NCBI RefSeq assembly: GCF_000337415.1
Contig: NZ_AOJD01000061.1
Location: forward strand, 1-64,000
Direction: 5' to 3'
Length of the DNA stretch: 64,000 nt
DNA from: Halorubrum tebenquichense DSM 14210
GTDB lineage: Archaea; Halobacteriota; Halobacteria; Halobacteriales; Haloferacaceae
Position 1 is the first letter of the stretch. Every line of letters begins with the position of its first letter. Positions 42,588 through 62,448 of the stretch are shown one piece after another. Both the position numbers and the translations under genes were made by a program. The notes under the pieces were generated by a model. The model had not been told where the DNA came from and did no database searches. It worked only from the letters and a program-made list of their open reading frames with translations.

Positions 42588-42612
42588 GACCACCGAAGCC
42601 CCGGCCGGGAGG
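42588..42612 (+). repeat. Truncated 5' copy of the structured element head
   Basis: A 25-bp segment (GACCACCGAAG plus the following GCCCCGGCC and GGGAGG) is repeated exactly at 42642-42666, 54 bp further on, where the full element begins. It looks like a partial duplication of the element head. The DNA between the two copies carries the TATA-like GGCTATACGC (42611-42620) used by the full copy. Confidence 0.8.
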
Positions 42613-42620
42613 CTATACGC
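42611..42620 (+). promoter_or_regulatory. TATA-like box upstream of structured element copy A
   Basis: GGCTATACGC is centred about 27 bp upstream of the element head (GACCACCGAAG at 42642). Copy B has CTTATAAG at the corresponding distance. The agreement between unrelated loci supports a promoter. Confidence 0.45.
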
Positions 42621-42641
42621 AGTCACTCTTGTCCCGACAGA

Positions 42642-42882
42642 GACCACCGAAGCCCCGGCCGGGAGGCGGGCGCACGCTCGCTGCGCTCCTCGCTCAGTCG
42701 CTAACGCTCCTTCGCTGTGGTGCTTACGTCGCCTGCGCCCGCCTCCCGGCTGCCCCTTCGAGTCCCGCCCCGCACAGCAACCGCACCTCACGCCCCCCCA
42801 GCCTCGTCGCTCACTCCGTTCGCGACTCCCTCGCGCGTGCTCCTCGCGGCCTGTCGGCCGCTCGCAGGCACGCGCCACCGCA
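42642..42882 (+). repeat. Dispersed structured element, copy A (candidate structured RNA)
   Basis: About 241 bp between the engB and enolase-like stop codons, with no credible ORF. Order: conserved head CCGAAGCCCC (647-656 of the 42 kb block); arm GCCGGGAGGCGGGCGCA (42658-42674); loop starting CGCTCGCTGCG and ending CGTCGCC; perfectly complementary arm (42734-42750, 17 bp); conserved GCCCCTTCGAGTCCC; then GCACCTCACGCC and CCCCAGCCTCGTCGCTC; then an outer stem GCGCGTGC/GCACGCGC (42833-42840, 42868-42875) enclosing GCGGCC-TGTC-GGCCGC. Copy B (62152-62417) and the edge fragment (1-65) share the blocks but have different stem sequences that still pair. A TATA-like box 28 bp before the head suggests transcription as an RNA. 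No family known to me. Confidence 0.75.
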
Positions 42883-62151: not shown

Positions 62152-62417
62152 TGCGGTGGCGCGTGCCGACGAGCGCCCGGAGGGCGTGAGTCGCACGCGC
62201 GAGGGAGTCGCGAGCGGGTGGGCGACCGAAGGGAGCCCAGAGCGAGCGACGAGGCTGGGGAGGTGTGAGGTGCTGTGCCGTGCGGTTCGGGGTGGGACTC
62301 GAAGGGGCAGCCGTGAGAACGCCGGAGGCGACGCAAGGACCGCAGGAACGAGCGGAGCGAGTGACAAGGACCGCAGCGAGCGTCCGGCGTTCTCACGGCT
62401 GGGGCTTCGGAGGTGTT
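62152..62417 (-). repeat. Dispersed structured element, copy B (candidate structured RNA)
   Basis: About 266 bp on the minus strand between gatE and tRNA-Leu, without a credible ORF. Conserved head CCGAAGCCCC at 62410-62401 (reverse); arm AGCCGTGAGAACGCCGGA (its reverse complement at 62383-62400, partner at 62309-62326), a perfect 18-bp hairpin; conserved loop ends; GCCCCTTCGAGTCCC; then the outer stem GCGCGTGC/GCACGCGC at 62193-62200 and 62159-62166 with inner CGCCC-TCC-GGGCG. Compared with copy A, six of 17 stem pairs differ and every one is compensated. A TATA-like CTTATAAG (62441-62448) lies about 30 bp upstream. Confidence 0.75.
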
Positions 62418-62440: not shown

Positions 62441-62448
62441 CTTATAAG
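62441..62448 (-). promoter_or_regulatory. TATA-like box upstream of structured element copy B
   Basis: CTTATAAG is centred about 27-30 bp upstream of the element head, matching copy A (GGCTATACGC) at a near-equal distance. Confidence 0.45.

Follow-up and report, generated by a model that had tools for sequence, protein, structure and literature searches.

Repetitive palindromes of the REP, BIME and REPIN type, associated with RAYT (TnpA-REP) transposases, are high-copy intergenic hairpins that persist over long times (e.g. PMC3116915, PMC8266576); REPINs occur as inverted pairs and are rare in divergent promoter gaps. Haloarchaea have transposase-free palindromic repeats as well, namely the PATEs and SMR-A of Haloquadratum walsbyi, for which no target duplication is known (PMC3119063). 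Compensatory changes, conserved internal loops and variable stems are hallmarks of structured RNAs of the kind collected in Rfam. Integron attC sites, in turn, are single-strand hairpins with variable stems that are recognised by shape, one strand being preferred.

Here, we describe a dispersed haloarchaeal element that resembles REPINs, PATEs and structured RNAs in several of these respects. It was analysed in a window (the whole stretch of DNA under study) of 64,000 nucleotides from Halorubrum tebenquichense DSM 14210. The family is apparently undescribed: no Rfam family matches the element, and a search of the openly available literature returned neither a description of it nor a relevant paper with its core sequence. 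We favour, with a probability of roughly 0.5, the reading that it is a REPIN-like structured DNA repeat that does not depend on a RAYT and is homogenised by gene conversion.

Copies in the window and anatomy of the element

An earlier note on this sequence had described two copies, A and B, with shared blocks in the same order and perfect hairpin arms of 17 bp in A and 18 bp in B. The locations, the order and the arms all hold, with copy B extending here over 62152–62411; also as described, six of the 17 aligned arm positions differ between A and B, and all six are compensated. The 5-bp outer stem, hairpins 2 and 3 and the partial unit upstream of copy A are additional to that account. The features are:

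42588–42641, + strand: partial unit upstream of copy A, in which 26 bp from the element's 5′ end recur identically at a spacing of 54
42646–42882, + strand: copy A, full element (cmsearch 236 bits, model 1–250)
42648–42652, + strand: 5′ side of the outer stem of copy A, CGAAG, pairing with CTTCG at 42756–42760
42658–42750, + strand: hairpin 1 of copy A, with 17-bp perfect arms at 42658–42674 and 42734–42750
42752–42771, + strand: conserved base (3′ side) with the tail of hairpin 1 in copy A, GCCCCTTCGAGTCCCGCCCC
42806–42826, + strand: hairpin 2 of copy A (GTCGC / GCGAC), whose arms differ strongly among copies
42833–42875, + strand: hairpin 3 of copy A (GCGCGTGC / GCACGCGC), with a variable nested tip
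62152–62411, − strand: copy B, full element (cmsearch 211.7 bits)
62442–62447, − strand: TTATAA, TATA-like box of copy B, exactly 38 nt before CGAAG; absent at copy A
1–65, + strand: 3′ part of a third copy, truncated by the left edge of the window (cmsearch model 191–250, E 3e-12)

In copy A, the C-rich strand is the + strand and the G-rich strand, which we infer to fold, is the − strand. The arms of its hairpin 1 enclose a conserved interior in which TC/TC mismatches (GA/GA on the G-strand) separate 2-bp steps, and the base and tail GCCCCTTCGAGTCCCGCCCC have the class-wide form GCCCCTTTCANTCCCRCCC. Upstream, 42588–42613 is a repeat of 42642–42667. Copy B sits 5′ of a gatB-like ORF and 3′ of a tRNA-like stretch. 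The covariance model was built from an alignment of 29 own-genome copies (A1); searched over the window, it returned E-values of 1.3e-57 for copy A and 1.4e-51 for copy B, far beyond chance, both copies being among the sequences used to build it.

Read along the C-rich strand, the 5′ part comprises the outer stem, a CCCC × CCCC internal loop, variable arms of about 10–20 bp and the conserved interior. After that interior come CCCCTT..A.TCCC.CCCC, a linker, CTCCCCAGCCTC, hairpin 2 and TCCCTC, and the 3′ part consists of hairpin 3, with its variable nested tip, followed by CGCGCCACCG. This three-hairpin arrangement spans about 250 bp; hairpin 1 is the class-wide core. Many copies in other genera are only hairpin 1 with its tail, or two such units inverted around a spacer of about 25 nt, and inverted pairs with a short spacer account for 30 of 143 matches there. 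Haloarcula, Halovenus and Halosimplex are among the genera with such REPIN-like pairs of hairpin 1, which are seen at L290, L292 and L303 and in about 30 matches.

In Halorubrum-type genomes, partial 5′ units recur upstream of the element with a 57-bp period, as in the complete congener G022. Tandem 57-bp units lie upstream of G022 copies (e.g. L070 1298–1470) and at 42588–42641 of the window; in each unit a TATA-like box is accompanied by GATCGACGGCGAACACC and by the element's first bases. The 58-bp promoter repeats of halovirus HF2 (PMC8707807) are of similar length, also with an AT-rich core in the promoter; this candidate was set aside because the motifs given in the text of that paper (e.g. 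TCTTTAAGTC) are different.

Other variants concern the hairpins themselves. The interior of hairpin 1 is inverted inside intact arms at L090, L096 and L101, and that of hairpin 2 at L101 and L108; inversion of a hairpin interior is a DNA-level event. Twin-hairpin inserts of about 50–65 bp occur within hairpin loops of orthologous copies (L065, L075, L080, L097, L101, L115), for example as GTCGCCGGCG-hairpin-CGCCGGCTTCCAGAGG-hairpin or TGTCGTTCGA-hairpin-TCGTGATGACGAGA-hairpin-TCGAACCACG, and are a second REP-like family that is apparently mobile. The G-strand tail of the element is GGGTGGGACTGAAAG in many genera (L290, L303); it resembles the 3′-terminal part of CRISPR repeats in haloarchaea (GTGGGAYTGAAAC), probably by chance. 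On contig C50 of the own genome (L017, ~1460–1480), CTGTCTCTTATACACATCT beside a run of N resembles a leftover Nextera adaptor in the assembly.

Abundance, fixed sites and concerted evolution

In G022, 148 copies were found in the 2.40 Mb covered, a density of about 62 per Mb; together they make up 1.6% of this sequence. Scaling to the total of 3.02 Mb gives about 185, and we put the family at roughly 150–200 copies per genome. The own genome has at least 40 scored blastn places (193 first-look candidates), and all 53 genomes of the genus have matches, most with at least 39 scored matches each. The earlier note had proposed a search of other haloarchaea: matches occur in 22 of 28 genera of the family (a tally that counts the own genus) and in 74 of 97 sampled genomes of the class, the element being absent or rare in some haloarchaea. 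When the core pattern GCCCCTTTCANTCCCRCCC was compared with 84,980 species, all were haloarchaeal among the matches listed. A plasmid of Halorubrum salinarum carries a related copy. Phages gave no blastn match to the element, and a phage origin was rejected on that ground.

Positions are conserved over the genus. Two species, G000 and G022, both carry a copy at 18 of 20 syntenic sites, in the same orientation at 17 of the 18; at the two sites where one species lacks a copy, the whole gap differs. Of the 30 best-matching congeners at each site, about 20 hold a copy in the same place as copy A and about 27 in the same place as copy B; in genomes with intact synteny around copy A, the element is whole or partly deleted. 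Neither a clean empty site nor a target duplication was seen at the copy-A site or among the 20 syntenic sites. Inspection by eye and a repeat search of copy A showed no evident terminal inverted repeats or target duplications; placing the ends of the element exactly would take an empty site. Recent transposition was rejected given the lack of clean empty sites. Insertion polymorphism of the MITE or PATE type, with clean empty sites, was likewise not encountered, 18 of the 20 sites being common to the two species.

Orthologous copies are about as alike as random inter-genome pairs (likeness 0.796 versus 0.779, p 0.32, 15 pairs). Paralogs within G000 are closer to each other (0.808, p 2e-18), though the G000 copies were gathered by a similarity search, which may have favoured alike ones. 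The type of hairpin 1 is unlinked to hairpins 2 and 3 of the same copy; the latter two are linked. The copies evolve in concert, with short-tract shuffling of hairpins within each genome.

Covariation and the strand that folds

In A1, a sequence alignment, 97.7% of cells pair, against 87.8% when shuffled and 30–49% when slid, and compensatory double changes are present at 26 of 46 pairs. For 69 G022 matches (A2), the corresponding values are 96.6%, 83.9% and 29–44%, with 327 double-changed cells versus 86 ± 7 in controls; A1 is the cleaner test of pairing, because A2 was fitted to the covariance model. Since copies share ancestry and convert each other, the independent compensatory events are fewer than the cells counted. 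Of 168 copies, 167 keep the two sides of the 5-bp outer stem complementary, through four alleles (CAAAG/CTTTG, CGAAG/CTTCG, GAAAG/CTTTC and GGAAG/CTTCC). Stems thus change in sequence yet stay paired, at fixed positions, which argues for selection on a folded single-strand shape.

Covariation in further copies, on which the earlier note had let its case for an RNA family depend, is present in the 29 own-genome copies and in the 69 G022 matches. The dispersed, structured and covarying character that it described extends over many more copies and genera, and the copies are intergenic, in agreement with its view of the element as non-coding. The name “RNA family” goes further than these results: the structural signature is on the strand opposite to the one described there, and the one well-placed promoter-like box points in the other direction and is present at only some of the copies.

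Covariation by itself does not tell a folded RNA from a folded single-stranded DNA. Folding energies were dropped as a means of deciding, since z-scores fell between −4 and −5 whichever strand and whichever parameter set (RNA or DNA) was used. The strand that folds is the G-rich one, the reverse complement of the strand in the earlier note, and its fold is conserved while its sequence drifts. Three features lead to this conclusion: tandem GA mismatches, GNA/GNNA loops and an excess of wobbles on the G-strand. GA/GA on this strand (TC/TC on the C-strand) lies between covarying 2-bp steps in 150 of 168 copies, compared with 2.3 in shuffles. The hairpin caps are mostly GNA triloops or GNNA tetraloops, closed by C-G. 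Mismatches that are G·T/U wobbles on the G-strand outnumber the mirror type by 57:13, 11:2 and 22:7 in hairpins 1, 2 and 3; the asymmetry in hairpin 1 leans on stem-base positions, being 30:12 without one hot spot and 16:11, not significant, without three positions.

In DNA, d(GCGNAGC) and d(cGNNAg) form loops of unusual stability. Of the hairpin-1 GNNA caps, 20 of 25 are not GNRA. The cap types (GNA and mostly non-GNRA GNNA) lean towards DNA over RNA without proving it, a preference that draws partly on DNA-hairpin thermodynamics.

It is also possible, though somewhat doubtful, that the element is a multi-copy ncRNA or UTR-motif family, whose transcribed loci would yield a three-hairpin RNA that binds a protein or another RNA, and which would evolve in concert as rRNA genes do. 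Strong covariation, a conserved non-canonical interior between covarying helices, the G-strand wobbles and the orientation kept at 17 of 18 shared sites would all be expected of such a family. So would the promoter-like boxes: TTATAA is found in G022 at −38 in 78 of 140 copies and at −35 in 17 (and at −95 in 60), and a conserved GAACACC stretch lies where an archaeal start site would be. However, the −38 box would drive the C-rich strand, and so it supports transcription, but of the structurally poorer strand. This box is also missing from copy A and was not seen in the other-genus copies inspected. A further TTATAA, 5–8 nt past the 3′ end of the element in about half of copies, would start a G-strand transcript inside hairpin 3. 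The inverted hairpin interiors, the non-GNRA caps, the lack of an Rfam relative and the lack of a strand preference with respect to genes (43:37 in co-directional gaps, p 0.58) also count against an RNA. A bolder proposal takes in both kinds of molecule, and we hold it tentatively, at less than even odds: a haloarchaea-wide ncRNA family of well over 100 concerted copies per genome, or an equivalent single-stranded DNA shape code read by a protein, in which fold rather than sequence would be inherited at fixed sites.

Placement between genes, possible origin and known systems

Copies in G022 reach no further than 60 bp into genes called by a home-made gene finder. They are enriched in convergent gaps (51 of 148 copies, 34%, versus 12% expected, p 4e-12) and depleted in divergent ones (17 of 148 versus 29% expected, p 7e-7), and 54% of copies lie in co-directional gaps. 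Copies are often near stop codons, and their spacing along G022 is close to random. A strand-specific 3′-UTR role was rejected on the 43:37 split, and replication-strand orientation on a runs test (z = 0.86 over 2.4 Mb). In the first 200 kb of G022, 12 of 14 copies have the same orientation at positive GC skew; the rest of the 2.4 Mb is without such bias.

This strictly intergenic distribution, together with positions conserved over the genus, could reflect intergenic punctuation: a double-stranded or extruded bidirectional terminator, an insulator or a supercoil/chromatin site between convergent genes, selected in place. We regard this as unlikely. Any repeat purged from promoters would show the same distribution; moreover, the 54% of copies between co-directional genes show no strand preference, some haloarchaea have few copies or none, and the spacing is nearly random. 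Least probable of all is an origin without selection on shape, in which intra-palindrome template switching and gene conversion would keep arms perfect and covariation would be a mutational by-product. In its favour, copies convert each other, hairpins invert and the arms of many hairpins pair perfectly. Mismatches, however, would be erased by template switching, whereas the GA/GA steps between covarying pairs are kept in 150 of 168 copies, stem-base internal loops are conserved and mismatch types are strand-asymmetric.

The REPIN-like DNA reading is supported by high copy number, dispersal and strictly intergenic placement, and inverted interiors, inverted pairs and module shuffling fit DNA at least as well as RNA. 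The G-rich strand may be exposed as single-stranded DNA or as an extruded hairpin, and could then be recognised by its shape, either by a host protein or by a nuclease or recombinase acting in trans. Breaks provoked by hairpins would be repaired from other copies in these polyploid cells, which would explain sequence turnover at fixed sites. Old insertions would persist where they are least harmful, between convergent genes. No transposase, partner or mobilising enzyme was identified for the element. Dependence on a RAYT, as in REPINs, was rejected: PF01797 (Y1 transposase) is found in only 42 of 53 genus genomes, and G015, 99% complete, lacks it yet has at least 39 element matches. One caveat to the DNA-repeat reading is that an ncRNA gene, too, would have the promoter-like box at −38 and a conserved, asymmetric interior like that of hairpin 1.

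About 1.6% of a Halorubrum-type chromosome appears to consist of one undocumented family that spans most haloarchaeal genera sampled. With its fixed positions and fast, structure-preserving turnover, it offers a natural system in which to study how gene conversion works in polyploid archaea and to tell structural selection on RNA from that on DNA. It carries a warning, too, that covariation among repeat copies is not by itself proof of RNA.

Compared with Rfam-type RNAs, the element occupies well over 100 loci per genome, its interiors can invert, and it has no Rfam match. Its copies are dispersed between host genes and do not form a cassette array, a layout that argues against integron attC sites. 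By description, PATEs differ in being mobile: their insertions are strain-specific and their ends IS605-like, whereas the element is fixed in position and has a three-hairpin body. The twin-hairpin inserts in the element have a parallel in SMR-like repeats, which are nested within other repeats (PMC3119063). With REPINs it shares inverted pairs, here in several genera, and rarity in divergent gaps. REP and REPIN palindromes measure 20–40 bp (PMC3116915, PMC8266576), whereas the element is archaeal, 250 bp long and built of three hairpins. Unlike REPIN/RAYT systems, it does not depend on a Y1 transposase, its sites are locked across species, and its stems are free to change.
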